Part shown: positions 5,282-33,955 of the stretch, piece after piece
Position numbering within the stretch: position 1 is the first letter of the stretch
How the letters are laid out: every line of letters begins with the position of its first letter
From: Schoenoplectus triqueter
Taxonomy: Eukaryota > Streptophyta > Magnoliopsida > Poales > Cyperaceae
Reading direction: 5' to 3'
NCBI GenBank assembly: GCA_964058805.1
Contig: CAXKVV010002152.1
Span: 1-64,000, forward strand
DNA: 64,000 bases
Notes under the pieces: generated by a model
What the model was told of the DNA's origin: nothing
Databases searched by the model: none
Seen by the model: the letters and a program-made list of their open reading frames with translations, nothing else
Program-made: the position numbers and the translations under genes

Positions 5282-5283
5282 AA

Positions 5284-8200: not shown

Positions 8201-11200
8201 CCCGACGCCCTCAGTACCGCCGAAAATGAGTCCGGGAGCGTAAAACATGAAAACGGGATCCAACACCCTCCGCACCATCGAAAACGTTATCGGGAGCGCA
8301 AAACATGAAAATGGGATCTAACACCCTCCGCACCGCCGAAAACGTTATCGGGAGCGCAAAACATGAAAATGGGACCCGACGCCCTCGGGACCATCGAAAA
8401 TGAGTCTCGGAGCGCATAACATGAAAAAGGGACCCGACACCTTTCGCACCGCCAAAAACGTGTGCTGGAGCGCAAAACATGAAAACGGGACCCGACGTCA
8501 TCGGTACCGTCGAAAATGAGTTCGGGCACGCAAAACATGAAAATAGGAGCCTACGCCCTCCGAACTGCCGAAAACATGTCTAGGAACGCAAAACATGAAA
8601 ACGGGACCTAACGCCCTTAGTACCACCGAAAATGAGTCCGGGCGCAAAACATGAAAACGGGAGTCGACGCCCTCGGTACCGCCGAAAACAACTTTGGAAG
8701 CGCAAAACACGAAAAACCGGACCCGACACCCTCGGTATCGCCGAAAACGAGTCCGGGCGTGTAAAACAAGAAAACGGGACCCGAAGCCGTCGGTACCGCC
8801 GAAAATGAGTTCGGGAGCGCAAAACATGAAAACGGGATATCTCGCACCCGGTACCGTCGAAAACGAGTTCGGTAGAGCAAAAGTTGAAAAAGGGGACCAT
8901 CGCCCTCCGCACCGCCGAAAACGAGTTTGGGCGCGCAAAATATAAAAACGGGAGCCGAATCCCACGGTACCGTCGAAAACTAGTCAAGGAGCGCAAAACA
9001 TGAAAACAGAAACCTACGCCCGCCGCACAACTAAAAAACGAGTCTGGACGCCCTTAGTACCACCGAAAATGAGTCTTAGGCGCGTAAAAAACGAAATTAG
9101 GAGCCGACGCCCTCGGTACCGCCGAAAACGAGTCCGGGAGCGCAAAACATGAAAATCAGACCCGACGCCTTCACTATAGCCGAAAATGAGTCCGGACGCA
9201 CAAAACATGAAAACGGGACCCGACGCCCTCGGTACCGCCGAAAATAAGTTTGAGCGCGCAAAACATGAAAACGAGACCCGGCGCCCTTTGTACCGCCGAA
9301 AATGAGTCCGGGAGCGCAAAACATGAAAACGGGACCTGACGCCCTCCGCAACGTCGAAAACTAGTCCAGACGCGCAAAACATGAAAATAGGACATGATAC
9401 ACTCGGGATTGCCGAAAATGAGTTTGGGAGTGCAAAACATGAAAATGGTACAAAATGCCCTCGGTACCGCCAAAAAATAGTCCGGGCGCGCAAAACATGA
9501 AAACGGGACCTGACGCCCTCGGTACCGCAAAAACGAGTCCGGGAGTGCAAAACATGAAAATGGGACCCGACGGCCTCGGTTCCGCCGAAAATGAGTCCGG
9601 GAGCGCAAAACATGAAAACGGGTCCCGACGCTGTCGGTATCGCGGGAAACGACTATGGGAGCTCAAAACATGAAATCAGGAGTCGACGTCCTCGTTACCG
9701 CCAAAAATGAGTCTAGGAGCATAAAACAATAAAACGGGACTCGACACCCTCGATACCGACGAAAGCGAGTCCGGGAGCGCAAAACATGAAAATAGGACCC
9801 GACACACTCGGTACCGCCGAAAATGAGAACAGGTTCACAAAACATGAAAACGGGACCCGAGGCCCTCAAAACCGCCGAAAATGAGTCCGGGAGCGCAAAC
9901 CATGAAAATGAGACCCGCCGCCCTCCGCACCGTCGAAAACGTGCTCGGTAGCGCAAAACATGAAAACGGGACTCGACGCCGTCGGTACCGCCGAAAACGA
10001 GTTCAGTCGCGCAAAACATTAAAACGGGAGCCGACGCCCACGGTACTGTCGAAAACTAGTCCAGGAGCGCAAAACATGAAAACAGAAGCCTACTTCGCAC
10101 CGCCAAAAACATGTCTGGGAATGCAAAACATCAAAACGGGACCCGACTCCCTCGGTACCGCCAAAAATGAGTCCGGGCGCGCAAAACATGAAAACGGGAG
10201 CCGACGCCGTCGGTACCGCCAAAAAAGAGTTCGGGCATGTAAAACATGAAAACAGGAGCCTACGCCCTCGGTACCGTCGAAAACGAGTCCAGGAGCGCAA
10301 AACATTAAAATAGGAGCCTACTTCCTCCGCACCGCCAAAAATATGTCTAGGAACGCAAAACATGAAAACGGGACCTAACGCCCTCGGTACCGCCGAAAAC
10401 ATGTCCGGGAGTGCAAAACATGAAAACGGGACCCGACGCCCTCCGCACCGTCGAAAACGTGCTCAGGAACGATAAACATGAAAACGAGACACGACGCAGT
10501 CGGTACCGCCGAAAATGAGTTCGGACACGCAAAACATGAAAACGGGAGCCGACGCCCACGGTACCGTCGAAAACTAGTCCGGGAATACAAAACATGAAAA
10601 GAGGATCTTACGCCCTCCTCACCGCCAAAAACATGTCTGGGATCGCAACACATGAAAACGGGACCTCGCGCCCTCGGTACCGCCGAAAATGAGTCCGGAC
10701 GCGCAAAACTTGAAAACGGGAGTCGACGCCCTCGGTACCGTCGAAAATGAGTCCGGACGCGCAAAACTTGAAAACGGGAGTCGACGCCCTCGGTACCGTC
10801 GAAAATGACTACGGAAGCGCAAAACATGAAAACCGGACCCGAAGCCCTCGGTACCGTCGAAAACGAGGCCGGGAGCGCAAAACATGAAAACGGGACCCGA
10901 CGCCCTTCACACCGTCGAAAACGTGCTCGGTAGCGCAAAACATGAAAACTGGACCAAACACCGTCGGTACTATCGAAAACGAGTTCGGACGCGCAAAACA
11001 TTAAAACGGGAGCCGAAGCCCACGATACCGCCGAAAACTAGTCAGAGAGCGCAAAACGTGAAAACAGGAGCCTAGGCCCTCCGCACCGCCAAAAACATAT
11101 ATGGGAAAGTAAAACATGAAAATGGGACCCGACGCCCTCGGTACCGCCAAAAATGAGTCTGGGCCCGCAAAACATGAAAACGGGAGCCGACGCCTCGGTA

Positions 11201-11994
11201 CAGCCGAAAAAGAGTTTGGGCGTGCAAAACATGAAAACGGGAGTTGAAAATGAGTCTAGGAGCGCAAAGCATTAAAACAGGATCCTACGCCCTACGCACC
11301 GCCAAAAATATGTCTGGCAACGTAAAACATGAAAACGGGACCTAACGCCCTCGATACCGCTGAAAACGTGTCCAGGAGCGCAAAACATGAAAACGGGACC
11401 CGACTCCCTCCGCACCGTCGAAAACGTGCTCTGTAACGATAAACATGAAAACGGGACCCGACGCCGTCGGTACCGCCGAAAACGAGTTTGGGCGCGCAAA
11501 ACATGAAAACGGGAGCCGACGCCCATGTTACCGTCGAAAACGAGTCCAGGAGCGCAAAGCATTAAAATAGGAGCCTACGTCCTCCGCACCGCCAAAAATA
11601 TGTCTGGGAACACAAAACATGAAAACGAGACCTGACGCCCTCGGTACCGCCGAAAACATGAAAACAGGAGCCTACGCCCTTCGCACCGCCAAAAACATGT
11701 ATGGGAATGCAAAACATCAAAACGGGACCCGACTCCCTCGGTACCGCCAAAAATGAGTCCGAGCGCGCAAAACATGAAAACGGGAGCCGACGCCGTCGGT
11801 ACCGCCGAAAAAGAGTTCGGGCATGTAAAACATGAAAACAGGAGCCTACGCCCACGGTACCGCCGAAAACGAGTCCAGGAGCACAAAGCATTAAAATAGG
11901 AGCCTACTTCCTCCGCACCGCCAAAAATATGTCTAGGAACGCAAAACATGAAAACGGGACCTAACGCCCTTGGTACCGCCGAAAATGTGTCTAG
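5284..11994 (-). repeat. 58-bp satellite array, inverted block
   Basis: About 115 monomers of the same 58-bp satellite in the opposite orientation; each now reads GGTACCGCCGAAAAYGAGTC on the + strand. The flip occurs at 5282-5283, where two A residues separate the last forward GGCGG from the first inverted GGTACCGTCG. Several monomers are damaged, for example truncated units near 11237-11250 and 11655-11665. The block ends at 11991-11994, where the older LTR sequence starts. Because the two blocks are complementary, read-through RNA could fold into long imperfect double strands. Confidence 0.93.
5525..9115 (-). repeat. Large duplication (about 1.8 kb) inside the inverted satellite block
   Basis: The segment from about 5525 to 7345 is repeated from about 7350 to 9115. 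A diagnostic CATCAAAACTGCACCCGG variant occurs at 5897 and again at 7725, an offset of 1828 bp. Other shared markers are the AACCTAYGCCCGCCGCACAA segment near 7230 and 9010 and the GTCTTAGGCGCGTAAAAA monomer. Small internal deletions distinguish the copies. Shorter related blocks occur near 10019-10400 and 11562-11950. Confidence 0.75.
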
Positions 11995-12637: not shown

Positions 12638-12642
12638 AAGAG
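12638..12642. repeat. Target-site duplication of E1 (left)
   Basis: AAGAG immediately precedes the TGTTAAC start of the E1 5' LTR and recurs at 38649-38653 immediately after the 3' LTR end. Five base pairs is the length normally produced by Ty3/gypsy integrases. Confidence 0.92.
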
Positions 12643-13849
12643 TGTTAACCCTTGAAAGATTTCAAGGATGAATAGATGAATAAATGAAAATAAATTGATG
12701 ATTGATGACAAATAATAAAAGAGGGAAGGAGAGAAAGCAATGAAAGATGGCCCACTAATCAAGAGAGGTCGCTGCTTAACCCCGGAACAAATCCATTAAT
12801 TCCACAATGAAATGTCAGGGTGAGAGACGAGGATATAAATGCTCCACCACCTCCTACTCATTCGAGGTGGCTGACCCTCGGGAGATTTAGGAGAGAGAAA
12901 ATCTCCTGATGGGTCAGCCATTTGATTACATTTTTTCTGACAAGTGGGACCCACCTGGCAGTCCCTTGTAGATGAACCTAACAACATAGCCTATCTGATG
13001 AGTCACCCATGTGACCATTTTCACTGACAGGTGGACCCCACACCTCAGTGACCTATTATAGGAGTCAGAGTTGAACCCTAGAAATCTGCCTTTGGAACTA
13101 ACCCTAGAAAGGAGCTGAAGCAGTATAATCCCTATGCTACATGAAATGATGTCAATGCCAAGCTAGCATTTTGATGCAACTAGTCATGAGAAATTCCAAA
13201 TGTGATTTTGCTTTCAAGGCTGACCTGGTGCCAAAGCTGCGAGCAACCACCTAACCATGCTTTGATTTGTGTCAATTACTGATAAGTAGTCAGTTCTTTG
13301 ACCAAGTCACCCTCATGTTAAGGGATTGAAAGACAATTTCACAAGACTGATCAGGTGCCAAAGCTGGGAGCAACCATCTGATCAAGTCTAGATCTGTATC
13401 AACTGTTGACATGTAATCAACTGTTGATCAGATCAAGCCCTAATGAATATCAATATAAGTCTAATTGGTATTTAGTTAGGGTGGTTTCTGCAAGGGAGAG
13501 ATAATTGGCAGAGACACAGAGCTACAAATGAAATCTGGGATTAATTCAGAAGAAATAATAGGGTTTATTTGATAAAAGAATTTTTAATTCAGAGAGACAA
13601 GGGTAAAAATGGAATTAAAAATTACAGGGATGATCATCATGATTTTAGGGATTTTTGGTGAAATTTTCATGATTTTTGGATAAGTGGAACTATCAGAATA
13701 AATTCAGGGAAGATAAAACAGATTAAAAGGAAAGATCAAGGGCTGAGATTCAATCAAGGGTTCATCTGGGTGCAACTTGGGGACAGAGACACATCTGGGT
13801 GCAAGCTGGGGACTCCAAACACGCACACACAGAATAAGAGAAGAGAGAG

Positions 13850-14420
13850 GGTGTGACACGTGTCAGCACCCCATTGGGCCACCTCAGCATGTCAGTGCCA
13901 CGTGTCGACATTTCATTGGTCCACCTCACCCATGTGGGTCCCACATATCTGACAAGTGGGTCCCACCTATGCCACGTGGCAGTCAGCCAATGGTCTGCAT
14001 CAGCAGCCACCTCACCAGACAGATACAAATGGCCAGCTCTGATTGGACCACATCACAAGCCACATCACCACTTGAGCCACATGGCTATCTGTGAGTGGTC
14101 CACACCAGCAAGGGATATGCCAAATGGCAACACACAGGGTGAGCCACCTCAACAGCTGGGTGCCACATGGCACTTCCCTATTGGTCCACCTCAGCCATGT
14201 GGGCCCCACCATACTACAAGATGACTGACATGTGGGCCCCACCAACATGCCACGTGGCAAGCTGTGACAGAGCCACCTTGACATCCACGTGACACATGGC
14301 AATGCATCAGGCCATACACATCAGCAGACACAATCCTATTCAATTACACATGGCAGCTACCTATTGGATAAAGTCAGCACAGTGGACCCTGCCTAGTGCC
14401 ATGTGGCATCCACAGATCAA
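13850..14420 (+). promoter_or_regulatory. U3 array of CACGTG/CACATGG and CCAAT-type boxes
   Basis: About ten CACGTG or CACATG cores, mostly inside the longer palindrome-like GCCACRTGGCA, occur in under 600 bp (for example near 13858, 13908, 13973, 14081, 14164, 14252, 14283, 14346, 14399). They alternate with ATTGG/CCAAT words and with GTGGGTCCCAC palindromes (13935-13965). CACGTG cores are classic G-boxes bound by plant bZIP and bHLH factors, and ATTGG is the inverted CCAAT box. Position upstream of both TATA-like boxes suggests a shared enhancer. Binding is inferred, not shown. Confidence 0.6.
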
Positions 14421-14633
14421 GGCACAGTCAGCAATAATTACTGACTAATCATGGCTTAATCATACATCTAACCCTATCACAGCATGCCATGTCAGCTTGA
14501 TTATCTATGAGATGCTGACTGGTGGGGGCCACTTGCAAGAGAATGAGGCAGAGGCGCATATCAACAGTCATAAACCAGTCTCATACAAATAAGAAGCAGA
14601 ATTTAAATCAAAAGAGAAAAGGGAAGAACAAAC

Positions 14634-14775
14634 CTGGACCTTGCGCCGTCCCTCTCTGACAGGTCTCTCCCGGGAGCTTTGGTCCACATGCGCCGTGTGC
14701 ACCCGTAGACGGCTCTCCCCTCTCCCTTCTTCCTCTCTTCCTCTTCCTTCCGCGCGATGGAGAAGAAGGCGCCAT
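14634..14775 (-). other. Antisense PMD exon 1 copy in the E1 5' LTR
   Basis: This is the 5'-LTR copy of the short exon described at 33307-33448. It has an ATG at 14773-14775, an Arg/Lys-rich reading frame and a CCAG|GT donor at 14634. Here it points out of the element towards the older LTR and the satellite, so transcripts from it would have to splice to flanking DNA. Confidence 0.5.
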
Positions 14776-15556
14776 TGTCAAATAGAGTTGAATGCAGCTT
14801 CTTTCTTCAAAATTCCTTCACAGAGAGCTATGTAACATGGATTAAAGCTTGTATGAGTGATCAATTTTAAAAATTGAAAAGAAACAGTGAGTAATTGGTT
14901 GAGGCAATTGACGGAATTGAAATTGGGACTAACCTTTGTGAAGAGGCAGAAGACAAATTGATCACTTGTACACCTTCTTGCTACTTAGGCGATCTTGTTT
15001 GAGTGCAAAGGCAGTATCTTTGGAAGCTCTAAGCTGGTGTTCCACCAGATCACCATTAGAGGCCGAGACTGGTGATGAAGAGGTAATGATGGAGCATGCT
15101 ATTGATCACAGGAGTGTAAAGGATTGAGTTCTAGAGTTAAAATGATGAATTTAGAGACTGCAAATAGAAGAATTAGTGAAGGGAAGGTGAGATGGCAATG
15201 GAGACCCGGTTTGAAGGCTTAGAAGTGGAAAATGGATCTAAAGTGTCAAACAGAACCCTTACACCGACTCAATTGATTTATAGGAGTATGGGATGGATGT
15301 TAGAACTCTCAGAATGTTCTAGAAAGGTCTGGAATAATGGGAGACCGAAGCATGTGAGAGAGTGGCAAAAGGGTAAAAAAGAAGAGAAGAATAACTAACT
15401 CCAGCCGCAAGGGATTAGTTAGAGGCAGTTAGTTGAGTAGTAAGAAGTACAAATGGATCTTGACCATTGATTAAAATGAAGTTAAGGGCTAAGATTAGCT
15501 TAGGAACCATAATCCGGCCATTAATCACCTAACCAATCGCAATTAAGCAAGAGGCC

Positions 15557-15564
15557 TATATAAA
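15557..15564 (+). promoter_or_regulatory. Sense TATA box of the E1 LTR
   Basis: TATATAAA within CCTATATAAACACCC, followed by a purine-rich tract from about 15574. The same CTATATAAAC block occurs in the same relative place and orientation in the older LTR (40289) and in the E2 LTRs. This three-way conservation makes it the best candidate for the genomic RNA promoter. Confidence 0.7.
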
Positions 15565-15966
15565 CACCCTAGATGAAGAACAGAAAAAAAGAAGAAGAAA
15601 AAAAAACAAGAAAGGGAGAAAGAGAGAAGGGAGAGAAGAGTGAAAATAATAGAGAATAAGAGATAGAGAGAGAAGAGAAGAATTGATTGAAATCGGATTT
15701 GGCAATTGAAGAAGAAAATTCAAGCATTTTGACCGAATTGAGTTGGATTAGCACAATTACCCTTGTCATCTCTATCAAGAACCAAGGATAAGTAAGATTT
15801 TCATTTACAAATGTAATTGATATAGAATTAAAGTGTGATTCTTTTCTTTCTTTCTGAATTTGATTCTTCCTTTACCTTTTATCATCTATTCTTTTCATTT
15901 CTTGATTCTTTGAAAGCTATAAACATTTGCATAGAGGGTAATGCATTGAAATTAGATCAATTGGTG

Positions 15967-16078
15967 ATCGGTTGAAGGGTTTTTGTAACCCTCCCGATTT
16001 TGTATTTGATTTGGAATTATAATTCATTTTGAGTTGGTGATGGAAGTTGATTGAAGGGTTCCCGTAACCCTCTCAACT
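15967..16078 (+). other. Two bipartite stem-loops with variable outer stems
   Basis: The first (15967-15998) is ATCGG, TTGA, AGGGTT, loop TTTGT, AACCCT, C, CCGAT. The second (16045-16078) is AGTTG, ATTGA, AGGGTT, loop CCCGT, AACCCT, CT, CAACT. The inner stem is the same while the outer stem changes on both sides and still pairs. The older LTR has two more with the same plan at 40743-40820, where the inner stems change too. This points to a selected RNA fold in the leader. Confidence 0.65.
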
Positions 16079-17099
16079 CTCTCACAAGTTCAATTGCATG
16101 GGTTTAGTAAATTCATCGAGTGGAATTGATATACTGGTATACCATAGGGTGAATTGGGACTTTTTTTTATTTATTCTCGCAATTATCATGATAATGGGAT
16201 TAAAAACTATATCTAGGTAATAGTTGAGGAGTTTCATGGTCGCCTGAATGAGTTTTACAAATTTGATTTCATGAATTTAACTAATTCCATTAGATCAATC
16301 AGTATACTGATAAATATATCAGTACCGATCGTGCACTTCACTCAATTAGCATAGATTCATGGATTATTAACACTTTATACATCAATAATCCGCTCTAGAC
16401 AAGTCTAGGAATGTACAAGAATGTTGAGATTGCTTGCATATCGTGTATAGGCCGATTACAAACATAACTTGAGTTGGTACCAAACGGTACCGAGTAATCT
16501 TGAGCTCCATAGCCTTCTTGAATGAATTCAAATAGAAATTGACCATGTTATTTTGTTAAAGGAACTAGGGCGATGCTATATAACATGAAAATTGTGTAAA
16601 TTGATCGATGAATGAATCGAATTTGATATTAGAATCACTTCGGTACCGAGATGTACCACTGAGACAATTTGATGATGGTGTCTATTGAGAACCATCGCAC
16701 AGATCATTAATCGGACGCCGTAGAATAACTCCTCATGGAAAGACGACTCTGAGGCAGTTGTCTGATCGGAGGGAGATGGCCGCAGTCGCCGGCGCTGCTA
16801 AGAGCACGAATCTTGAAGCTTACGTTGACTGGAGAGTCAGGGAATCGTGGCAGCGCGGATATTGACGCGCACATGTGGATCTTGAAGAGATCGGACGTTT
16901 GGGATAAAATGACGTTTTTTTAAATAAAGATCCAGAATGAATCTGGGCCTTACATCTCGTATGGTTTAATCTTGAGGCGAATCCAGCGGCCCAAATAAGA
17001 ACGGAGTTAAAAGAAAGATGAGCGCCAATCTTGATGAAGATCCAAAGGCCCAGATTAGACCCATTAATTAAATAATAACAGAATACTAATGATATAGAA
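15999..17099. other. Leader part of the E1 LTR without recognised genes
   Basis: No supported gene. It holds several GGTACC-containing short palindromes (such as GGTACCAAACGGTACC near 16478 and GGTACCGAGATGTACC near 16642) and a low-AT segment around 16680-16870. The longest open frame here (antisense, 16820-17134) has no recognisable domain. Confidence 0.5.
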
Positions 17100-18360
17100 T
17101 AAATAAATGGTTTAAAAATGCTCCTGAACTCCAAATTGACCCAAATTTGTTTCTAAAGTTTTCTTATTTTTCATACTATTTTTCTATACAATAATATTCC
17201 AGTTTTAAAAATATAATCATGTTAAAACAATTTAAAAGCAAAAGACATTACATATATTGATATATTTGACTTAGCTTTGACTTGTCATTTTAAATACTAT
17301 AAAAATCCCAAAAATTCAAATAAAAATCATGAATAATAGTTAGATATATTTTACTGATTTTTCAAGTGATTTTTCATGAAATAATAGTGATAATAGTAAT
17401 ATACAATAATAAATAATGATATTAGCTCTATTCTTTGATAAATAAAAATAAACAATAATAGAAATTATGTTAATATTTTCTAAAAAAAAAAGAATAATAA
17501 AAATAATAAATAGTACAAAACATACAAAAATATATACAACCATTATAATAGATATTAAATGCATTTTCTTTTATAATAAAGAATGATAATGTAGTTTTAT
17601 AATAAAATGAATTGTATTTCTTTTGTTATTTCTATACAAATATACAATAAAAATATTTTGATGGATAAAATGCAATAAAATAATAGTTGTAATAAAGAAT
17701 ATAATGAATTCCATCCCTTATAGCTATTTTCAAATATTGATGGTAATAATAAGAATCTTATATTTTTCTATAGAAAATAATAAAAAAGATATATAATGAA
17801 AAACTATAATAAATAAGATAGAATATTAATAATGACTTCTTTTAGCTATTATAGATCTAAAAAAATAAAAAAAATAAAAATAAAAAATATAATAATATAG
17901 CTAACCACATTTTGATTTGTAAATAACTTTTACATAATGAATATTGTTTCAACATAATGAAATATAATTACTTTGGCTATTATAAACATTTTGAAAATAT
18001 AAATAAAAATCATTGCCATTTTATTTTCTATTATTTTTGTAAGTGATTTTCTACAAAATAAATAGAGTTTAGAAATAATAAAAATAAAATTCTACTATTT
18101 TAGTTATTATAAAAATCCCAAAAATATAGATAAAATTCTAGTTAATAGCTAACCCCTTTTTCTTATTATTTTTTGTAAATAATTTTTCTACATAGATAAA
18201 TAGAGTTTAAAAATAAAAAAAATATAATAAAAATAATAATAATAATAATAAAAAATATAATAATAATAATAATAATAATGAATAAATTCATTTTTATGAT
18301 AGAGATGATAATGGAAAATATTATGTAATAGGTTTTGTACATTTTGGAAATGAACAAAAA
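17100..18360. repeat. AT-rich degenerate tandem repeats and (TAA)n tract
   Basis: Extremely AT-rich sequence with loosely repeated units of roughly 115-130 bp built around CTATTATAAAAATCCCAAAA, a gap, then AATAGCTAA or AATAGTTA. A TAA/ATA microsatellite lies at about 18224-18280. Related repeats occur in the older LTR (63048-63480) and in E2 (about 43370-43770, reversed). The two ends of a unit are complementary, so each can form a long-loop hairpin. Confidence 0.6.
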
Positions 18361-18429
18361 TGCTCACATAAGGAGTGTAGAGCCACATGAGGATGTTTGG
18401 CACACATGATGTAACATTTAGAATGATTA

Positions 18430-19662
18430 GTCAGGACAAGAACATCTTGACGAAGGATAAACAAGGTTGCAACGGCAACACGAGAAGATACGTCGAGACG
18501 GGAACATTTTGACGTAGGATGACTAAAGCTTCGATAGCAACATGAGAAGATGCGTTGAGACAAGAACATCTCGACGTAGGATGATTAAGGCTTCGATAGC
18601 AACATGAGGAGATATGTCGAGACAGGAACATCTTGACGCTTGATGAAAAATAACCTGAGCTACGACATCAACATGAAGATACATGTCGACTCTGAGGAAG
18701 AAGAACATTACGATGTCCTAGAGAGGTGACATCTTAATGACTCACTGCCATGAGCAAGTAACTCATGATTGAATACGCTCACACAAGGGGTGTAGGGCAA
18801 CATAGTAATTTTGCACAAGTAATGCAACATATAGAATGATTAGTCGAGACAAGAACATCTTGACGCTCGCTGAAGAATGACCAAAGCTACGACATCAGCA
18901 TGGAGAGATATGTCGACTTTGAAGAAGAAGAACATTACGATGTCCGAGCGAAGCGACATCTTAATGACTCGGTGTCATGAACAAGTAATTCATGACCATT
19001 TGAGCTAGCAAGACTGAACTCATCCGTCGATAAGTTTGTCTCCTGGCTCATTTCCCGAGACTGTGAGATTAAATCGTTCTGTAGTAGATTCATCCACAAA
19101 ACAGTGAATGGGAACCGTTCTGTAGGTAGGTTCCTTCACTAACACATGCCTCAATGTTGAACTGGCCCAGCGCTTCAGGTTTGACATTGTGTGTAACTGT
19201 GTTTCCTAGGTTTATGAATCGGCTTAGTGCTTCGAATTCATGATCTAGAAGATCGGTGAGAAGAAACACGTGGGCCATATCCACCCTTCTCCTGATTCAC
19301 CAACCTCAAGATCAACCGGCTCAGCGCTTCGAGTTGTATTTTGTGTGATTGGTTGTTGACTAGTTAAGATTGAACCGTTCTGTAGTAGGTTTATCTTCTA
19401 GATCAACGGAGGTCGAGTCGTTCTGTATGTAGACTCACCTCAAGCCCCTCTGAAGAGACTAACCTGGTCTGTAGTAAGGTTACATCTCGAGGTGGCATAG
19501 ACTGAACCGATCTGTTTGTAGGTTCGTCTTCCATAGGACAAAACCGATCTGTTTGTAGGTTTGTCTTCCATAGAATTAAGTAAAGACCGAACCGATCTGT
19601 TTGTAGGTTCGTCTTCCATAGAATTAAGTAAAGACTGAACCGATCTGTTTGTAGGTTCGTCT
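18430..19662 (+). other. Dense array of covarying hairpins in the LTR U5/leader
   Basis: At least 20 short inverted repeats cover this stretch, in families. Type A has loop CRRGAACA: 18430-18451, 18489-18516, 18551-18578, 18615-18638, 18843-18864. Type B has loop near YGGCYYAGYGCTTCRR: 19152-19189, 19212-19243, 19313-19336. Type C has a loop of about 12 nt near GWTCTGTANGTA: 19067-19094, 19104-19139, 19367-19396, 19409-19441, 19455-19488, 19499-19529, 19537-19565, 19584-19614, 19632-19662, plus a variant-loop member at 19012-19040. Type D has loop CAAGTAA: 18749-18767 and 18975-18995. Stems differ between members but remain complementary. Most type C members also share an unpaired base on the 5' side below the fifth pair. 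Wobble pairs are G-U on the + (sense) strand. Confidence 0.75.
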
Positions 19663-19980
19663 TCCATGGACCCCTTTTGCGAACCCAGACGACCACTTGA
19701 CCATCTTTTAACTACACTATTTGCTTCTCTCTTTCAAAGATCCAGAGGTGCCTCGAGGTTAGTAGCCCAGGGTAATTAACGGTGGGGGCTTGCGCCCATC
19801 GGAATCTACAAGAACTCACAATCACTAAAAAACCCCCTGAATGTACATCCAAATCTCTCTAAACGGCAGAATCAGCCGGCACTTAGCAGATGCACGCTCG
19901 GGAGGGATCTCCGTGTCCTTCTTCCGCAACCCATCGCCCAGCGGCGGTGCGGAGCGCGCGAAAAAGGGTCGCACAGGATC

Positions 19981-19999
19981 TGGCACGCCCGGTGGGACC
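19981..19999 (+). other. E1 primer-binding site
   Basis: TGGCACGCCCGGTGGGACC starts 5 nt after the 5' LTR end, begins with TGG (complement of the tRNA CCA end), and is conserved at 57913-57931 in E2. The type is widespread in plant Ty3/gypsy elements. I suspect a tRNA-Arg primer, as in Ogre-like elements, but did not verify the isoacceptor. Confidence 0.85.
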
Positions 20000-20076: not shown

Positions 20077-23000
20077 ATGACTAATAATTTTCAAGTATTT
20101 TTGTTTTTGCAGGAAATGACATTCTTTGGAAACTTCAACCTCGCTCCCTACACCGTCACCCCTGCAAAGAGCCCAGAGGGCAAACTGTTCATGTTCTTCG
20201 GGACCATCCCGCAAGAACTCACTGTCTATGGCCCAGCTTCAGTGGCCACGATCACTCCCGCAACCGTCCGGATCTCCATCCCGGACGAGGAAGAGGACTC
20301 AATCACCCTGACTCCCAAGGGCATCTCAAATAATGTCATGGCCTCTCCTACTACCTCCCCAAAGAGGAGAAGGCGACCGTCCAAGAGGACAGCCCCAACG
20401 GCCGCAGCCCAAACTACCCGCAACTCTCAAGCGTCCAGGAAGAGGGCCCTGGATGCATACCAGAATCAGCTGGTGGCTAGGCCAGCTATCCCAGTCTCCA
20501 ACAAGTTCTCGGCTCTCCGAATAGTGGCCAAGAACTCGGCCACAGGCCAGCTCCGCCAGGCATGGGAGGTGCCTAAGCCCACATCTCGCCCAACTCAAAG
20601 GCCTCAACACCGCCAGTATAAGTCTCAAGCCCCTGCAGAAGCCATCTACAAGGCTCACAGGGCCCTCAAACAGAGGAAGAGCGTTAGAAACGCTAGGTCG
20701 AGACAATACGTCTCCCGCCCCAATCAATCTCAAGATATGGCTCAGCCGCAAGCCATTATCACAACTCCGCACCCAAGGAGGTTTATATCAAAGGCAACAC
20801 CTAGCGTCCAGCAGGTGTGGGTTCCAAAGGGTTCTCAACTAGCGAAACCCCAGTCTCAAGCCCAACCCAGAAAGACAGGCAACTCTTGCACTCCGTCCGA
20901 GAGTGTATTTAGCCGCCTAGGTCAGAAGAGTGTATTCAGCCGATTAGGCTCGAGAGTACCACTCAACAACCTAAAAATAACTGCCCCTGACCAAATGAAG
21001 AAGAAGAGAAGAACCGCTCGCTATGAAGAGCACTTCTCGGTTAACACCATCAGTATAAGCTATGACACTGATCCAGACACTGATGCTGAGGCGAACATGG
21101 CCCAGGATGACCAGTCCCCGCCTAATCAAGCTCACGTCACCAACACCAATAAAAATAATGGTAGAAAAGGGAGACCTCCCAAGAGAGCCAACCCCGAAGG
21201 CAACAGCAGGGAAGGAGAAGACCACAACGAAAACCCTGACTTCTTCGATAATGAAGATGACGTTGAAACACGTCCCGAAGTGCCTATCGATGAAATTGAA
21301 ATACTAAAAGGCCACATCGAGGCACGGGATGAAGAGCTGATTAGGCAACGGGAGCTAATCGCTACCATGCTGAAACAAAATGAAGAACTGATTAAGGCGG
21401 TCAAGTCATTGCAAGAATCACAAGACGCCAATTTCAAAGCTGGTAGCTCCCGTCAAGAAGGGGTCCACAGTACCAAAAGCAATCATAAGGGAAAACAACC
21501 CGTCGACTCTAAACCCCATCCACACAGAACAATAGAAGTGGAGGCTGAACCAACGGGAATATCCCGGAAAGAGATTCAAGCCATGATTGCCCAGCAAATG
21601 CAAATAGCTGGAGGTGGATACGCCATCCCTCCCGTTAAAAACTGTGGACATCCATACCCTGCCATATACGATTTAGAAGAATATCCTAAAGGGTATGTGA
21701 TCCCCCGCTTCAGGACCTTCTCCGGGGAAGGCAATAAAGACCTAAACCCCGAGCAACACTTGGCCCACTTTGTAGCCTCGTGCGGCAACACGGGCGGCAA
21801 TGACGCGCTGTTGTTGAGACAATTCCCTCAAAGCCTGGTGGGAACCGCCTTTCAATGGTACTATTCATTAGAAAACAACAGCATCAGGACCTGGGACGAG
21901 ATGGCGGACTCGTTCAGGGCACGATTTGTCATGGTGTCAGACAAGATAAACATAGCCGATCTGGCAAGCACTAAACCCAAGAAAGGGGAGTCAATGATAG
22001 ATTTTATCAATAGATGGCGGAACCTCAGCATCAAATGCGACCGCACATTAACTGAAGATGAGGCCGTCAACCTAATCATGAAAAACATTGACGGGTGGAT
22101 GGGCATGCTTCTTGGTGTGACAAAGGTCAACACATTTAAAGACTTGCTCAGATCGGTATCCAATATGGAAAGGATGTCACCGCACACTGTGCCGAACTTC
22201 ATGAATAATAGGCCGCAACGAGGAGCCCGAGCCGAGACTAAAGTGGCATTCACCTCGTTAAAGGATAAGATGGTCGCTAACGCAGATACTCAAAGCGGCA
22301 GCAGTGGCACAAATGGCAACAATTATAATAAGGGACCGAGGCCCAATATAGCAGGGAGTTCACGGAGTTTTGAGTCCCTCAAACAAAAGAAATCTAAACC
22401 GTACTCCTTCAGGAAAGATAAAGTTGCCCAAATCTTCAGAGGGGCACTAAAGAACGGTCTAGCCCTACCGGCCAGTAAACGCCCAGAAGATGCCGATAAA
22501 TCGGACGAACCCAACTTTTGCCCATACCATAGAGTACTAGGGCACTCGATTGAAGATTGCTGGGTCTTCAAAGATTGGGTCGAGAAGGCGTACAAAAACG
22601 GTGAAATTACTTTACCTAAAGGGTTCTTACAAAGTCCATCAGCCCATGAACAGGCCAATATGATCTCTCACGAGGAAGAGAAGATCCTGGACCAATTAAG
22701 TGAAGACCAGGAAGAACAATGGACTACACACTTATCGAAGAAATCGATTAAAATGTTTAAAACCCTTAAGAAAGAACCTGGTATGAGATGGAAAGACGAC
22801 ATCACGCCAGTGGTCCCACCGAAACCCAGGGTATATTATAAGGTGGACCAGAGCCAAGACCAGGTTCTTAAGAAGAGAAAGAAGCATAGAAGCAACAAGT
22901 CCAGAAAGAATAAAATTGAAGAATGCGAGCAGGGCAGTCCCGAGGCGATTACCCTTCAACACTTCATCTCCAAAGAAGATTGGGAGAGGTTAACCCTAGG

Positions 23001-23367
23001 TCAAAAGAAAGAAGATGTAGATGAAGAAATAAATAAAGAAGAAAGCGAAGAGATCTGGGGTGCTTCGTGCAACATGGTATATTCTTCTCACGACGAAGAT
23101 ATGCCAACATTAGAGGAGATGTTCTTCCTAAACGACGAAGGGGAAGCAAGCACCTCTGGGACCAAAAATGAAGAATGCAAAGCCGTGCTCCGGTCCGGGA
23201 CTTACATACCTGAGAGGCAAGCTCCCAAAGATTCTGATAAGGGAAAGGATAAGGCCCAGAACAAAGGTAAAGAGGCTGAGAACCTAAGCAAGAACCCAGA
23301 AAAGACCCGGTCGACGGGCGAAGAATACAATGTGTTGGCACATCTGCGCAAAATCCCAGGTTATTAA
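20077..23367 (+). CDS. Retrotransposon Gag polyprotein (E1)
   Basis: A 1096-residue nucleocapsid precursor that would form virus-like particles and bind element RNA. The N-terminus is basic and Pro/Ser/Arg-rich, with a tandem SVFSRLG motif (near residues 286-298) seen in plant Ty3/gypsy Gag proteins. A charged coiled-coil lies about 403-449. The Retrotrans_gag domain (about 545-700) contains FQWYYSLENNSIRTWDEM. A zinc knuckle of unusual CHHC type follows: C815, H818, H823, C828. The start is ATG 20077. A strong splice acceptor-like TTGTTTTTGCAG lies 20 nt inside, before a second in-frame ATG (20115), also present in E2, so the leader may be spliced. The frame ends just short of ORF2, which lies in the -1 frame. 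Confidence 0.93.
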   Translation: MTNNFQVFLFLQEMTFFGNFNLAPYTVTPAKSPEGKLFMFFGTIPQELTVYGPASVATITPATVRISIPDEEEDSITLTPKGISNNVMASPTTSPKRRRRPSKRTAPTAAAQTTRNSQASRKRALDAYQNQLVARPAIPVSNKFSALRIVAKNSATGQLRQAWEVPKPTSRPTQRPQHRQYKSQAPAEAIYKAHRALKQRKSVRNARSRQYVSRPNQSQDMAQPQAIITTPHPRRFISKATPSVQQVWVPKGSQLAKPQSQAQPRKTGNSCTPSESVFSRLGQKSVFSRLGSRVPLNNLKITAPDQMKKKRRTARYEEHFSVNTISISYDTDPDTDAEANMAQDDQSPPNQAHVTNTNKNNGRKGRPPKRANPEGNSREGEDHNENPDFFDNEDDVETRPEVPIDEIEILKGHIEARDEELIRQRELIATMLKQNEELIKAVKSLQESQDANFKAGSSRQEGVHSTKSNHKGKQPVDSKPHPHRTIEVEAEPTGISRKEIQAMIAQQMQIAGGGYAIPPVKNCGHPYPAIYDLEEYPKGYVIPRFRTFSGEGNKDLNPEQHLAHFVASCGNTGGNDALLLRQFPQSLVGTAFQWYYSLENNSIRTWDEMADSFRARFVMVSDKINIADLASTKPKKGESMIDFINRWRNLSIKCDRTLTEDEAVNLIMKNIDGWMGMLLGVTKVNTFKDLLRSVSNMERMSPHTVPNFMNNRPQRGARAETKVAFTSLKDKMVANADTQSGSSGTNGNNYNKGPRPNIAGSSRSFESLKQKKSKPYSFRKDKVAQIFRGALKNGLALPASKRPEDADKSDEPNFCPYHRVLGHSIEDCWVFKDWVEKAYKNGEITLPKGFLQSPSAHEQANMISHEEEKILDQLSEDQEEQWTTHLSKKSIKMFKTLKKEPGMRWKDDITPVVPPKPRVYYKVDQSQDQVLKKRKKHRSNKSRKNKIEECEQGSPEAITLQHFISKEDWERLTLGQKKEDVDEEINKEESEEIWGASCNMVYSSHDEDMPTLEEMFFLNDEGEASTSGTKNEECKAVLRSGTYIPERQAPKDSDKGKDKAQNKGKEAENLSKNPEKTRSTGEEYNVLAHLRKIPGY

Positions 23368-23384
23368 GTATATTTGACGCATTG

Positions 23385-25880
23385 ATGATGTCACAAGACC
23401 TAAGGGAGGTACTAATCCAGGCCTTGCAAGATCCCGAGAAGTACAAATCATACTTCATCGAGCAAAATATGCAGGAAGCCCTTTTCACCGCCAAGCGGGC
23501 CGCCTGTATAAATTTCACGGACGATGACCTCCTAATAGGCACCGTCGACCATAACCGCCCACTGTACATCACAGGAAATTGTGGAGGGCAAAAGATTGGC
23601 CGTATCTTGGTCGACGCAGGGTCTTCGATCAATATCATGCCGCTTAAAACTCTGAAGACCATCACCTTAGATGTGAAGAACCTATCTGATGAAAAGGTGA
23701 TTATTCATGGCTTCAATCAAAACTCCCAAAAGGCCCTGGGAGCTATAACTCTGAACCTGCAATGCGGAAGCCTAAGAGCGCCTACTAAATTCTATGTCAT
23801 TGACGCTGAAACCTCTTATCGGGCGTTGCTGGGTCGCCCGTGGCTTCATAGTAATCAGGTCATACCCTCTACTCTGCACCAATGCCTGAAATATATCGAG
23901 AATGGTAGGCAAAAGAGAATTGATGGGGATGTCAAACCATTCGGGGTGCATGAGATTAAATTCAATGACGCCCAATATTTTCTGCCCAAATCCGCTGTGG
24001 CGCCGAGCCGGCCAATAACAAAAGCAGGTCAGAAATCTCTTAATGAAAGCCCTAAATTTGACACCTCATCTGGAGAAGAAGAAGAGGTCAAATTCAATAT
24101 TAAACCCCGAGGTGCTCGAGCCCAAAGACCCGGAAGAAAGTCGGGTGAGGAAGCAACCTTCCGCTTCAAACAGGTGGCTACGTATAAGGCCCAAATAAAG
24201 CCGAGCGAAATCAAGTCAAGTGATTCTGAGGAGGAGGTCATTTTCAACTTTAAACCTACCAATGCCCCTCAAATTCAGATCACAGAGGCAACTTCAGGGG
24301 AAAACTCTGAAGAGTCCGATGACTCGGGCGATACCACCTCAGGGGAAGAATCTAGCCATAATCGTCAACCCTGGGAAGAGGAATCTGACGAAGAGATCAT
24401 CTATCACATCCTCAAGAAGCCATATAAAGGGCCTGAAACAGATAATGAAAGCGAGGAATCATTTATGATCAACACGGGATCCGGTAGCGGAAGGGATAAC
24501 CCGGTTAGGCCGAGGCCTATAAATGAAGAACGCTCATGGCGGGAAAACTTTGAAGGTCGCATCTGGAATGCGATCGATGAAATAAGGCACCAGGTTGAAA
24601 ATGACAGAAGGGAGGTGTCTGAACAATGGGAAGTAATGCAGGATATCAAAGTGCAACACAATGAAATCATGATAATGATTGAAAACCTGCAAACCGCAAT
24701 CTATAATTCCGAGCTACTCAAAGAAATGGCAAGCGAACCCCGCGCCGAGACCCCTGAAAGACAAGCACCCGATAGCGGTAAACGGGTAATTGTTATAGTA
24801 GATGAATCAAAGGGGGAAGAAACGAGAGCTAAACAATCGGCCGTCATGCAAACCCTCAAGGCCAAGAAGAGTAAACCATACTCTTTCCTGAAAAATAAGA
24901 CAGCTCGGATATTTGAGCAGGCCTTAAAGAGCGGATTGACACTTCCCGTTTGTAAACGACCCGCGGACATAGAAAGAGCCGGTGAAGGCGAATTCTGCCC
25001 TTATCATCGCATATTGGGTCACACCATTGAAGAATGATGGGTATTCAAAGACCTAATAGAAGAAGGGCACAGAAACGGGACAATCCAACTCCCGAAGAGC
25101 TTTCAACAAGACCCAGCTCCGCACAACTCGAATAACAAAGGTAAAGGGGTTGCCTATACGATCTCGCACACTCCCGTACCTAGCAAACCCAAGGTTGCGA
25201 GACGTAAGCCGATCAAAGAAATCTACCGCTCCAACTCAGTTATGAACATTGAAATAGAAGAGGAGATGGCAGCGCTAGAGATTACTGTGGTTCCCGAAAG
25301 GCATTTTAAAGACCTTATACCAAGGGAAGTGAACCACATTCAAACCCTAAAGACCTTTGTTGTGCCGGCAAAGGTAGAGCGCATCAAAGGGAAAACTATC
25401 ATCCACAAGGCTATAATTTTCTATCAGAGCGATTCAACTCAGTCTCTGAAGAACCCTGATCACAACACTTGGAAGAAGTGGGTGATAGAACAAGAATCGA
25501 AGAATGCAACGAGCGGTGACGCTGCATCTCATCCCTTTGGAAAGGAGCTGTACAAACTAGCAAAAAGGGCAAAATGTCTGAGAGACATATCCAAGGCCGA
25601 GGCCAAGCGCTTTGATGAACTCTGGAATGGCGGCCAGAATAAGGTTCTGGGCCTGGATGGTAAAATAAAATACACCCGAGGGTTAGGGTATAACTGCGAT
25701 GACGCAGCATGTCTTGAGGGGTCCCTTAACGAATACCATTCATATCAAGCAGAGAACAGCTGCTGCGCGGCAACAATTGAGAAGGTATACGAGGGCGGCG
25801 CATACCAACTCATAGACCATGAAGGTGAAAGGCCCATGCCACCGATTAATGGGCGATATCTGAAGAAGTACTACACATAG
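23385..25880 (+). pseudogene. ORF2: retropepsin-like domain, second CHHC module, integrase-tail remnant (interrupted)
   Basis: The frame is -1 relative to gag and homology-like sequence continues across the gag stop, as if one nucleotide were lost or a -1 frameshift were used. The aspartic protease signature D77-A-G-S-S is followed by ALLGRPWLH near residue 150. Then comes an acidic linker, a KPYSF module and a second zinc knuckle (C538, H541, H546) closely matching the one in gag. An in-frame TGA at 25035-25037 replaces the fourth ligand; E2 has Cys there. The same frame continues to 25880 with a GLGY motif and a GAYQLID...PPINGRYLKKYY tail typical of the end of plant Ty3/gypsy integrases. 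RT, RNase H and the integrase core are missing. In its present form it yields at most about 551 residues. Confidence 0.85.
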
Positions 25881-29161: not shown

Positions 29162-29335
29162 CCGGAGTGGGAGAAGGAAAGGAAGACGGGAAAGACGGCT
29201 GAGAGGCGCCGTCTCGATCTCTCTCCACGGTGGCTGGAGCCGGTGGCTCGACAGGTGGCTGAGAGTGAACGCCAACTACTCGTGGGCGAGGGACTGAGAA
29301 CCCGGGCTCCGCGTGATCATACTCGTAAGCCAACT
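29162..29335 (-). CDS. PMD gene exon 3 (E1), Pro-rich linker
   Basis: A 174-nt exon with acceptor GATTCAG|AG and donor CCGG|GTGATT, phase 1 at both ends, identical in length to E2 (50271-50444). It encodes a proline- and arginine-rich segment beginning ELAYEYDHAEPGFSVPRPR. Without splicing the frame would stop at the end of the exon, so splicing is needed to reach exons 4-7. Confidence 0.7.
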
Positions 29336-29412
29336 CTGAATCAAAAGAGAATTGGTTGAGATAAGACGAGGCTTATCAAAAAGAAACAACCTAAAGAGAT
29401 GATGAGGTGTAC

Positions 29413-31200
29413 CTGTGAGAATAGTCCTAACAGGAACACGAGAAAACCGGCTGTCTAAACCCTGAAAATCGACAGGCTCTGCGGCAATGGCCGGAAAAGG
29501 GCTGCGATCACGCGGAACGGTGCCATCTAATAGAGGCTGGTCATCTCGCGGACATGTACTCCGGACGACCACCGGAGGAGTATACGACTGGTAAGAGCGA
29601 ATAGCCTCATAATACCACTGCTGATAACGCCTCGTGAAGGTGGAAGCCCTAGAGGTGGATGCCATCTGGCAGCGAGTGCCTGTGCCTAGTCGGAAGAGGT
29701 GAGTGTAACACCATCCGATACCCTCCAAATCGGCCGCCAGTGATATAGGGCGGAGAAGAGGCGCTGGAATATCCTGATCCAAGCCAAACTGATGCGCGCA
29801 TCGATGCGGCGAATATGGCTCGATGAACATATAATCGCCCAATCTGAGAGGAAGAAAGCCCTGACGAATACTGATCAGGTACTCCAAATCGATAGGCCTG
29901 GCTCGGATGCTAGAGGAGTCAGAAGAGGGAACCCTACTGTCAATCACCATCCTGTCAGCAACCCTAGCTGCCCCACGGGCCACTGACCTATCTCGAGAGA
30001 AGCGCAGATGGTCTCGGCTCCTGAAGAATCTATACCGAGCAGCCTCCGGAGTCAATGAAGCTGGCTGCACCCCAGCTAAGTCACTCAGTAAAGGTAGGCG
30101 ATCTCGTAGCGTGACCGCCATGCCGGGATCATATGAGCCAGACCAATGTAAATGGAGCCATCCGCTAATCAGATGCCACGGAATCAGCTCCTGGCACTGT
30201 GAAGGACTACGGGATGAGGTCAGACCGCGGAGGCATCTATAAATGTTGGCCAGTACAGGCACGGCCAAAGAAATCCTGTCGCCACGCGCAATCAGGCTCG
30301 CCATGACGAACACCGAAGGCCGAATGGTGTATGCAGGGGAGCTAGGCAGTAAGAAATAACAGATCCACCAAGAGATGAAAGCTGTCAAATAAGTCTCCCG
30401 ATCCACGTCATGTGAACACAGGGTATCCTGAGAGGGGATAGGGCCGTCATGATGAATCTCGAGTCGACCTGTACCAAATGGATCTCTGGTGGAAGCCAAG
30501 CCCGTAGGGCGAGTATGGACCCGATCGGTGAAATAGGCGATCCAATGTCTGAATGGAACTCCGTGATGCCCCCTCCGTAGATGATAATAAATCTCATAAG
30601 TCCTCTGTAAAGAAGGCGGGAATCGAGTGAAGTCTCCCGAGTCAGCGGGTGAGACCATGAACTCGTCATAGAAATGGCCGAAGATCGGCAGCCCGGTCAA
30701 CTGCTGTATCTCTAGGAGGGTCGGAGTCAGCTCCCGATCGTCGATGAACAAAGTGTTGGTGGAATAGTTCCACCGCTCACAAAAGGCCCGTAGCCAGGGT
30801 GTATCGATATGATAATGAAACATAGACAAGAAAACCGAGTCATATATCCCGGCTCGCCTGAGCAGAGTCCCCTCCCGCATGAGCACATACCGGGTCCACT
30901 CTAGCTGATAGCCATGGCACTCTAAAGGAGTGATAAAGGGAGCAGTAGTCCATCTATGAGCCTCCCCGTCAATAATCTCCTTGCCCAGGAGATGTGTCAA
31001 AGGAGCCGTAGAGGCAACGCCTAAGGGCTGAAGGGGCATGATGTCATGAGGCTGATCATCTCTGAAGAATAAACCGCCGCCTCGCGGGTAGACAGGAGTC
31101 GCTCGGATGGCTGAGACGAGAGGAGTCCAATCGCTAGGATCCTCATAAAAAGAATGATAATGACTCAAGGGGCGACGCGGAATGGCGTCATGAGATGGAA
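29413..31200 (-). CDS. PMD gene exon 2 (E1), plant mobile domain
   Basis: The main exon (1788 nt, 596 codons) runs from a GGGTATTGTAG acceptor to a CACAG|GTACAC donor. It encodes a plant mobile domain (aminotransferase-like PMD, PF10536 type), visible as WLRAFCERWNYSTNTLF followed by ELTPTLLEIQQLTGLPIFG, the usual W...LT-x-LTGLP signature, near residues 190-225 of the predicted protein. PMD proteins occur in MULE-type DNA transposons, in host proteins such as MAIN/MAIL, and as extra ORFs in Tat-type retrotransposons; their molecular role is unclear. The open frame runs on upstream across the LTR border but has no ATG there, so I prefer the spliced start. E2 has the same exon length. Confidence 0.8.
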
Positions 31201-31265
31201 CTACAATACCCGAAGAAGAGAAGACGTCATGAGAAATGAAGAGATAGATAATAAGGAACAATGCA

Positions 31266-31303
31266 CCAAGACAAGCCTTTCGAGCGTTCAAGGCTCGTCT
31301 TGG
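31266..31303. other. Long hairpin beside the 3' LTR of E1
   Basis: CCAAGAC-A-AGCCTT and AAGGCT-C-GTCTTGG pair over 13 bp with one mismatch around a 10-nt loop. On the antisense strand the mismatch becomes a G-U pair. It is kept in E2 (48299-48336). The next 12 bases, ending GGGTGGCTCTT at the LTR border, stand where a polypurine tract is expected but are only partly purine, so the plus-strand primer is uncertain. Confidence 0.6.
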
Positions 31304-33306: not shown

Positions 33307-33448
33307 CTGGACCTTGCGCCGTCCCTCTCTGACAGGTCTCTCCCGGGAGCTTTGGTCCACATGCGCCGTGTGCACCCGTAGACGGCTCTCCCCTCTCCCT
33401 TCTTCCTCTCTTCCTCTTCCTTCCGCGCGATGGAGAAGAAGGCGCCAT
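33307..33448 (-). CDS. PMD gene exon 1 (E1), LTR-encoded basic N-terminus
   Basis: ATG at 33446-33448 opens a frame of 47 codons plus one base, ending at a CCAG|GTTTG donor (last base 33307). Phase 1 matches the exon 2 acceptor at 31200, giving an intron of about 2.1 kb that crosses the LTR border. The peptide is strongly basic (SRGRKRKRGRRERG), a likely nuclear localisation signal. The two other LTR types have an ATG-initiated basic exon at the same place, also ending in phase 1 at CCAG|GT (39371-39521; 46214-46379), although their sequences differ. That parallel is the main support. No transcript evidence is available. Confidence 0.6.
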
Positions 33449-33948
33449 TATCAAATAGAGTTGAATGCAGCTTCTTTCTTCAAAATTCCTTCACAGAGAG
33501 CTATGTAACATGGATTAAAGCTTGTATGAGTGATCAATTTTAAAAATTGAAAAGAAACAGTGAGTAATTGGTTGAGGCAATTGACGGAATTGAAATTGGG
33601 ACTAACCTTTGTGAAGAGGCAGAAGACAAATTGATCACTTGTACACCTTCTTGCTACTTAGGCGATCTTGTTTGAGTGCAAAGGCAGTATCTTTGGAAGC
33701 TCTAAGCTGGTGTTCCACCAGATCACCATTAGAGGCCGAGACTGGTGATGAAGAGGTAATGATGGAGCATGCTATTGATCACAGGAGTGTAAAGGATTGA
33801 GTTCTAGAGTTAAAATGATGAATTTAGAGACTGCAAATAGAAGAATTAGTGAAGGGAAGGTGAGATGGCAATGGAGACCCGGTTTGAAGGCTTAGAAGTG
33901 GAAAATGGATCTAAAGTGTCAAACAGAACCCTTACACCGACTCAATTG

Positions 33949-33955
33949 ATTTATA
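33949..33955 (-). promoter_or_regulatory. Antisense TATA-like box in the E1 3' LTR
   Basis: TATAAAT on the - strand lies about 500 bp upstream of the exon 1 ATG and about 275 bp from the sense TATA box, pointing the other way. In E2 a TATTTAAA (45877-45884) has the corresponding place. Plausible core promoter for the PMD gene; weak on its own. Confidence 0.4.

Follow-up and report, generated by a model that had tools for sequence, protein, structure and literature searches.

Hairpins with conserved loops occur near the primer-binding site (PBS) of retroelements. A structured 5′ region of the RNA is associated with packaging and dimerization in Ty1 and retroviruses, according to PMC4974528. 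PMC5902531 describes the leaders of CaMV and RTBV as long and structured; they contain short upstream frames and carry a packaging signal. Sirevirus LTRs contain high-copy symmetric motifs, which PMC2829016 describes as repeated palindromic boxes, nearly all with a CGG-CCG core, located upstream of the TATA box. For the Ogre elements (Tat group, Ty3/gypsy), PMC6317226 reports a plant mobile domain (PMD) in 57% of elements and, for both Ogre and Retand, a second RNase H domain located after the first and before integrase.

We analyzed a 64,000-nt stretch of Schoenoplectus triqueter DNA (contig CAXKVV010002152.1, positions 1 to 64,000), referred to here as the window. A first-pass annotation, made from the letters alone, had proposed that an LTR leader in the window carried an array of at least 20 hairpins with conserved loops and covarying stems. 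Pattern scans confirmed the array and its named stems, and counted 26 hairpins of eight types at 18430-19658 (five A, nine C, three B, three D, two E, two F, one G, and one X).

Under the placement that we favor, the array would give the RNA a structured 5′ region, as the packaging and dimerization structures of retroviruses and Ty1/Ty3 do. Those signals comprise a few unique hairpins, whereas here 26 small hairpins, repeated within several families, were spread over 1.2 kb. It shared with the Sirevirus motifs a high copy number of symmetric sequences in plant LTRs. However, the present array had fixed loops, varying arms, and an asymmetric bulge, and neither the window hairpins nor the listed C, A, and D arms contained a CGG-CCG core with dyad symmetry. 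The CaMV and RTBV leaders were similar in being long and structured with short upstream frames, but they form one large stem-loop, according to PMC5902531, whereas the structures here were many and small. A literature search of open papers, at the level of the titles and abstract openings listed, returned no array of dozens of covarying hairpins with several loop classes. Leader structures for packaging and dimerization (retroviruses and yeast elements) and Sirevirus LTR palindromes were already known.

The host element and its relatives

The array was located in a Ty3/gypsy LTR retrotransposon of about 26 kb (element 1; 12643-38648, plus strand) that had features of the Ogre/Tat group known from plants. 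The array-bearing 5′ LTR (12643-19975, plus strand; 7.3 kb) started with TG and ended with CA, and the 3′ LTR (31316-38648, plus strand) had its own array copy at 37102-38335. The two LTRs were 99.69% identical over 7,335 columns, with 19 mismatches and 3 gap openings, and the element was flanked on both sides by AAGAG (12638-12642 and 38649-38653), a 5-bp target-site duplication. The PBS, TGGCACGCCCGGTGGGACC (19981-19999, plus strand), began 5 nt past the 5′ LTR and is presumably of the tRNA-Arg type. A gag ORF of 1,096 aa (20077-23367, plus strand) matched Pfam PF03732 (E = 2e-7). Residues 101 to 300 of Gag were basic, with net charges of +17 and +15 per hundred residues, and this stretch could bind RNA. 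The next ORF (23382-25037, plus strand) contained an aspartyl-protease-like region, with similarity below the Pfam cut-off. A pattern scan for a CCHC zinc knuckle found none in the gag or protease frames of the window or in the frame of L069, a pol-bearing relative. An antisense ORF of 719 aa (29276-31435, minus strand) encoded a PMD (PF10536, E = 1.5e-26).

Reverse transcriptase (RT), both RNase H domains, and integrase were absent from element 1; the pol of a relative aligned up to residue 812 and resumed at residue 1921. The second element in the window, which was on the minus strand, had the same loss, with the relative's pol aligned to residue 832 and resuming at 1921. Both window elements (23382-25880 and 53718-54779) lacked the RT-to-integrase part, yet retained gag, protease, and the end of pol. 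Elements of this kind may form a family without pol that spreads in trans. Open frames of approximately 3,050 aa (3,037 to 3,121 aa) were found in relatives, at gag matches. In L069, the domain order was RT (953-1112), RNase H (1202-1305), RVT_3 (1375-1487), and integrase (1667-1764). Thus, a second RNase H lay between RNase H and integrase, a region that was absent from the window elements. This domain order, together with the antisense PMD ORF of element 1, points to Ogre; the assignment is based on these two features, of which the domain order is also described for Retand. The 5-bp target-site duplication and the large size were further likenesses to Ogre. The differences were the absence of RT to integrase from the window elements and the hairpin array, which does not appear in the available description of Ogre in PMC6317226.

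A homology search with Gag gave zero matches among 8,000 candidates scored. The corresponding search with the PMD protein gave 18 proteins among 8,000 candidates: 17 were JGI proteins without an organism, and the remaining one, from Rhynchospora (39% identity), was the only named relative among those candidates. One JGI protein cluster (49 members) was 98% identical to the PMD ORF (29276-31435, minus strand) across 72% of the ORF, which suggests that metagenomes contain DNA from this plant or from a close relative. Elsewhere in the window, positions 599-11991 were occupied by a big GC-rich tandem array, in which the self-match offsets inspected were multiples of 58 and the orientation switched near 5283, where the AT skew changed sign.

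Homologous hairpin arrays were present in both LTRs of the second element, at 57960-58960 and 41986-43202 (minus strand). Between the two window elements, the LTRs aligned at 12643-14262 and 18412-19975, with no alignment over the approximately 4 kb between them. The 5′ part of the LTR at 12995-14262 was 91% identical to the second element. Genome-wide, the pattern TCTGTNNGTAGGTT had 1,915 matches versus 12 for its reverse-read control, and TCTGTAGTARRTT had 885 matches versus 207. The longest type-C counts in the 103 sequences scanned were 17 loops, found in two loci. Locus L050 had stems that included GAACT/AGTTC, GAATC/GATTC, GGACT/AGTCC, and GATCT/AGATC; its array (300-2440) was longer and split, and was surrounded by more inverted repeats of the AACGTTATAACG kind. 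In locus L051 (oriented; 1-816), integrase-coding sequence ended about 10 to 20 nt from the first type-A hairpin, with no intervening U3 or PMD, an arrangement that is a deletion or a template switch. The array was retained in both window elements despite the RT-to-integrase loss, and the LTRs of element 1 were 99.7% identical.

Covariation and conservation of the hairpins

All of the hairpins are given here on the plus strand. The five type-A hairpins (18430-18451, 18492-18513, 18554-18575, 18616-18637, and 18843-18864) had 7-bp stems and the loop CAAGAACA or variants of it, and the first four were spaced 62 nt apart. The two type-E hairpins (18662-18688 and 18889-18915) and the two type-F hairpins (18706-18739 and 18933-18966) were on a 227-nt repeat. 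The three type-D hairpins (18749-18767, 18810-18828, and 18976-18994) displayed the loop CAAGTAA on CATGAG/CTCATG and CATGAA/TTCATG stems. The type-G hairpin (19016-19037) was within a longer stem at approximately 19001-19050 in the predicted folds. The three type-B hairpins (19158-19184, 19215-19241, and 19312-19338) were the tips of longer imperfect stems in a consensus fold of 90 copies, and hairpin X was at 19258-19291. Two type-C hairpins, C1 (19071-19091; loop GTTCTGTAGTA) and C2 (19112-19133; loop GTTCTGTAGGTA), preceded a group of seven that spanned 19372-19658, with starts at 19372, 19415, 19461, 19504, 19541, 19589, and 19637. Members of this group had a 5-bp stem and mostly a 5′ bulge and a lower stem, and the last three were spaced 48 nt apart. 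The type-C stems included GAACC/GGTTC, AAACC/GGTTT, GAGTC/GACTC, and (T)AACCT/AGGTT(A), and GAATC/GATTC occurred in the second element, on the minus strand. In the window copy, the C1 stem contained an A-C mismatch (AAATC/GATTC). The placement of units on tandem repeats of 62, 227, and 48 nt indicated that the array grew by duplication. Rfam at the gathering score returned no matches within the 64-kb window.

The array folded with z scores of -6.3 (plus strand) and -5.7 (minus strand) relative to 30 dinucleotide-preserving shuffles, with pair spans of at most 70. Three other LTR stretches gave plus/minus scores of 0.2/-0.8, -0.1/-1.2, and -4.6/-2.5, and a gag stretch gave -3.9/-3.0. Because control stretches also scored low, folding energy by itself was not decisive. 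The arms of the hairpins were compared with arms swapped between units. For type C, we scanned 103 sequences (100 loci and three window stretches, with L001 to L008 and L069 excluded). After the removal of other loop lengths, units with no neighbor within 200 nt, and flanks shorter than 20 bases, 1,073 units in 102 sequences remained. Among 786 distinct units, 741 had at least four of five upper pairs. The 136 distinct arm pairs (102 loci) were 63.8% Watson-Crick, compared to 44.7% (standard deviation [SD], 1.5) with swapped 3′ arms and a maximum of 49.4% in 1,000 swaps. The 14 type-D arm pairs found in at least two loci showed a similar excess (0.595 versus 0.435; null maximum, 0.536). The signal was weaker for type A, because type-A arms vary little. 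In the 15 type-A arm pairs found in at least two loci, the paired fraction was 0.981 versus 0.950 and the Watson-Crick fraction was 0.819 versus 0.756, with the null maxima equal to the observed values (0.981 and, in 500 swaps, 0.819). In all 39 type-A arm pairs, the paired fraction was 0.919 versus 0.888, with a null maximum of 0.916.

The first-pass annotation had also described, for most members, a lower stem separated by an unpaired base on the 5′ side only. With 375 of 419 distinct type-C cores, each with four or more of its five upper-stem positions paired (G-T counted), a one-base 5′ bulge was the best lower-stem geometry, with 1.68 of 3 pairs Watson-Crick versus 1.27 in swapped cores (SD, 0.03). 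A geometry without a bulge was slightly above its null (1.16 versus 1.04), and the remaining three were at or near the null. The one-base bulge was not universal: that of C2, at 19112, was larger.

As a held-out test, the window copy was folded alone and its pairs were scored in diverged copies, with redundant ones removed (66 to 93% identical; 42 of 90, 18 of 60, and 7 of 46 sequences across three blocks). When both sides of a pair had changed, pairing was kept in 70.6% of 459 cells (51 sites), compared to 39.3% for slid controls and 38.2% for random stem columns. When one side had changed (1,144 cells), 44.0% were paired, which was similar to the controls (41.4% and 48.2%). The ratio of double to single changes was 0.40, which was three to four times the control ratios of 0.13 and 0.11.

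An R-scape-like, tree-aware test on 54 of 96 sequences, thinned to less than 97% identity, found no significant pair, either in the 115 single pairs of the structure or in the full set of column pairs. Most columns had few substitutions, and we therefore relied on the aggregate and held-out tests. The aggregate and branch analyses used 90 of 96, 60 of 65, and 46 of 51 sequences in the three blocks after redundant copies were removed. The aggregate paired fractions were 0.970, 0.971, and 0.970, whereas the tree null gave 0.870, 0.867, and 0.742, and none of 150 simulations per block was as high; these fractions are biased upward because the structure was derived from the same sequences. Pairs with two Watson-Crick types that differed on both sides were clearly above the tree null in one block (12 versus 4.5; maximum of 11 in 150 simulations), and the excess was modest in the other two (19 versus 12.8, SD 2.9, and 6 versus 3.9, SD 1.7). 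On internal branches, summed over the three blocks, there were 71 steps from Watson-Crick to G-U, 58 from G-U to Watson-Crick, and 13 same-branch Watson-Crick doubles; stepwise compensation via G-U was common. For covariation above the phylogenetic background, the check named in the first-pass annotation, the outcome was thus mixed: the aggregate exceeded the tree null in all three blocks, but no single pair was significant.

Substitution rates differed between loops, stems, and spacers. On internal branches, paired columns of the three blocks had 0.55, 0.43, and 0.50 changes per column versus 1.43, 1.03, and 0.78 in unpaired columns. The contrast was weaker on terminal branches (2.07, 0.84, and 0.44 versus 2.29, 1.29, and 0.54). 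The motif search fixed T3, T5, T7, and the loop GTA of type C by construction, and loop conservation was therefore taken from branch rates. The internal rates per column were 0.12 for the A loop, 0 for the D loop, 0.30 for C loops, 0.60 for paired columns, and 1.20 for other unpaired columns; the blocks included one A and one D hairpin only, and the D loop comprised 7 columns with 0 internal changes. B loops showed no special conservation (1.07 changes per internal column). The terminal rates were 1.13 for C loops, 1.31 for paired, 1.35 for other, and 2.14 for B columns, and the A (0.62) and D (0.29) loops remained low. A near-fixed loop on a drifting complementary stem is the trace expected if the loop, on single-strand RNA, is read by a protein or by another RNA. 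The covariation of the predicted structures, the loop conservation outside type B, the sense orientation, and the presence of the array with and without pol were supported directly by these data. The selected, modular, covarying structure that had been proposed was supported by the held-out compensatory changes, by the swap nulls (type C, and types A and D), and by the stronger conservation on lineage branches. The array is very probably a modular structure in the RNA of an Ogre-like LTR retrotransposon.

Strand, position, and competing explanations

The wobbles had been read as G-U on the sense strand. In arm pairs found in at least two loci, the ratio of G-T to A-C was 17:9 for type C (one non-Watson-Crick position), 17:2 for type A, and 6:5 for type D. 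A larger type-C count, 37:18, was biased because units needed four or more of five pairs to be kept, with G-T counted as paired. Choosing the strand from wobbles on a structure predicted for one strand was circular and was replaced by helices predicted without G-U. In these helices, new wobbles were 50:44 on internal branches (not significant) and 215:150 on terminal branches (p = 0.0008); unpaired columns gave 201:231 on terminal branches (Fisher p = 0.0006). The antisense-predicted structure had the opposite preference on internal branches (49 G-U and 75 A-C), with 225 and 172 on terminal branches. Thus, the sense-strand reading was favored for types A and C and on terminal branches, but not for type D or on internal branches, and wobbles do not prove the strand. 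Choosing by folding energy was rejected, since both strands fold: the sense/antisense consensus folds were -147.1/-124.1, -78.9/-86.7, and -144.4/-139.7, and the antisense folds were not much weaker. Eight elements with frames of 3,037 to 3,121 aa, picked for long frames among the 73 gag matches listed, were examined for orientation relative to gag, and each of the eight had eight sense and zero antisense C loops upstream of gag. Taken with the mixed wobbles, this constant orientation makes a sense-strand RNA structure likely.

The leader position of the array is something that we infer, and U3 or an intron is also possible. If the array were in the 3′ untranslated region or in unspliced RNA only, it might act on export, 3′-end formation, or the selection of unspliced RNA. 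This explanation, which we consider unlikely, draws on a donor-like GGTAATTAAC at 19772, an acceptor-like TTTTTGCAG (20100-20112) that ends just ahead of an in-frame gag ATG, and the absence of ATGs between the array and the donor in the window copy; with these motifs, the leader could be spliced around the PBS. The GT of the donor was kept in 77 of the 84 loci where the motif was found but lost in 7, and the ATG-free stretch was present in only 33 of 84 loci (19 of 103 were not scorable). An argument for a promoter from that stretch fails on the same count. In addition, the approximately 4 kb upstream of the array differed between the window elements, whereas the array and the remaining LTR aligned, as expected of a fast-changing U3 and a conserved R-U5. 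Upstream of the array, which was the region searched, TATA-like boxes were at 17981, 17998, and 18108. The LTR stretch just upstream of the array (17060-18360) was very AT-rich, with 18% GC in 17001-18000. A further explanation, with still lower odds, is that the array controls or shuts off translation as a long structured leader with a ribosome shunt or an internal entry site, and packaging is secondary. There were 37 AUGs between 18361 and gag, with many short frames, where a scanned leader should have none; an mRNA that included the array would thus be unlikely to be translated by plain scanning. The same AUGs count against the leader reading that we favor and, with the donor-like and acceptor-like sites, they allow for an array that is removed from the gag mRNA by splicing or that precedes the start site. 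For the translation explanation, it is neutral that AUGs were not depleted (37 on the sense strand versus 30 expected by base composition). A precedent is CaMV, and putatively RTBV, in which ribosomes shunt over a structured leader with a packaging signal, according to PMC5902531; however, those shunted leaders are single large stem-loops and not many small fixed-loop hairpins, and the loop conservation seen here points to recognition.

The hairpins could also be palindromes in DNA that are recognized by transcription factors or by the PMD protein that the element encodes, for which the Sirevirus boxes, the antisense PMD protein, and the folding of both strands can be cited. In a palindromic site, the arms would be kept and the spacer left free to vary, whereas the C, A, and D loops were the most conserved parts and the arms varied in step; the one-base bulge was also asymmetric, on the 5′ side. 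L069 had a PMD match of a mere 46 residues in the 9.9 kb examined, although L069 is not known to carry the array. The loop-fixed, stem-varying pattern is better matched by selection on the structure of single-strand RNA than by palindromes in DNA, which we regard as improbable. Reverse transcription is prone to template switching, and tandem duplication (repeats of 48, 62, and 227 nt) followed by quasi-palindrome correction through such switching might produce perfect arms without selection. This artifact is very improbable: same-branch doubles were few (13 versus 71 and 58 stepwise G-U changes on internal branches), bulges and wobbles persisted where conversion of whole arms would erase bulges, and conservation was stronger on internal branches and in loops. 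Other ideas were dropped. The GUAGUA loop, which we take to resemble the U2 snRNA branch-site sequence, suggested mimicry, but the common UGUUUGUA loops do not fit. MicroRNA precursors require longer stems than these, and the stems here were too short. A Pumilio-like loop, loop-loop kissing, and a bulged-G fold of the C loop were also considered and dropped.

A proposed role for the array

The best reading overall, to which we assign a probability of roughly 0.4, is that the genomic RNA carries the hairpins as a multivalent cis-acting array, to which Gag binds in packaging or dimerization. The first-pass annotation had named packaging, dimerization, translation, and Gag binding as possible roles. 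Conserved RNA structure under selection, a mark of packaging and dimerization signals, was found here, though none of the 115 single pairs was significant. The position next to the PBS, the retention in pol-less elements (which would be served in trans), and the loop conservation fit a cis-acting mark on genomic RNA. The involvement of packaging and Gag, taken separately, is tentative and falls somewhat short of even odds, and we infer the transcription of the array, its position in the RNA, its ligand, and its function.

The array lies just upstream of the PBS and, according to the proposed mechanism, would most likely be transcribed as part of the R-U5 leader of the genomic RNA. Every unit would be a short stem displaying a near-fixed loop (CAAGAACA in A, GAUCUGU(U)NGUA in C, and CAAGUAA in D), with the B units as tips of longer stems and the C loop mostly presented on a stem with a 5′ bulge. 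Units would multiply via tandem duplication, after which the stems would drift with complementarity kept. The loops would serve as repeated sites at which the element's own Gag (no zinc knuckle was found in it) or another trans-acting factor binds, and the many copies would jointly mark full-length RNA for packaging and/or dimerization. It is a conjecture, which would fit, that the array is a mark confined to unspliced RNA. A more specific version, which is doubtful, is a repeat-copy packaging code: an Ogre-like, duplicating array of several loop classes that is read by a Gag lacking a zinc knuckle.

The array is compact, repeated, and well delimited, and its single hairpins are suited to probing, Gag-binding, and removal tests. 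If a repeat-copy code is true, then array length and the mix of loops could set packaging strength, and pol-less relatives could compete for the same particles. If the proposed role is upheld, LTRs would be shown to be able to hold long selected RNA structures.
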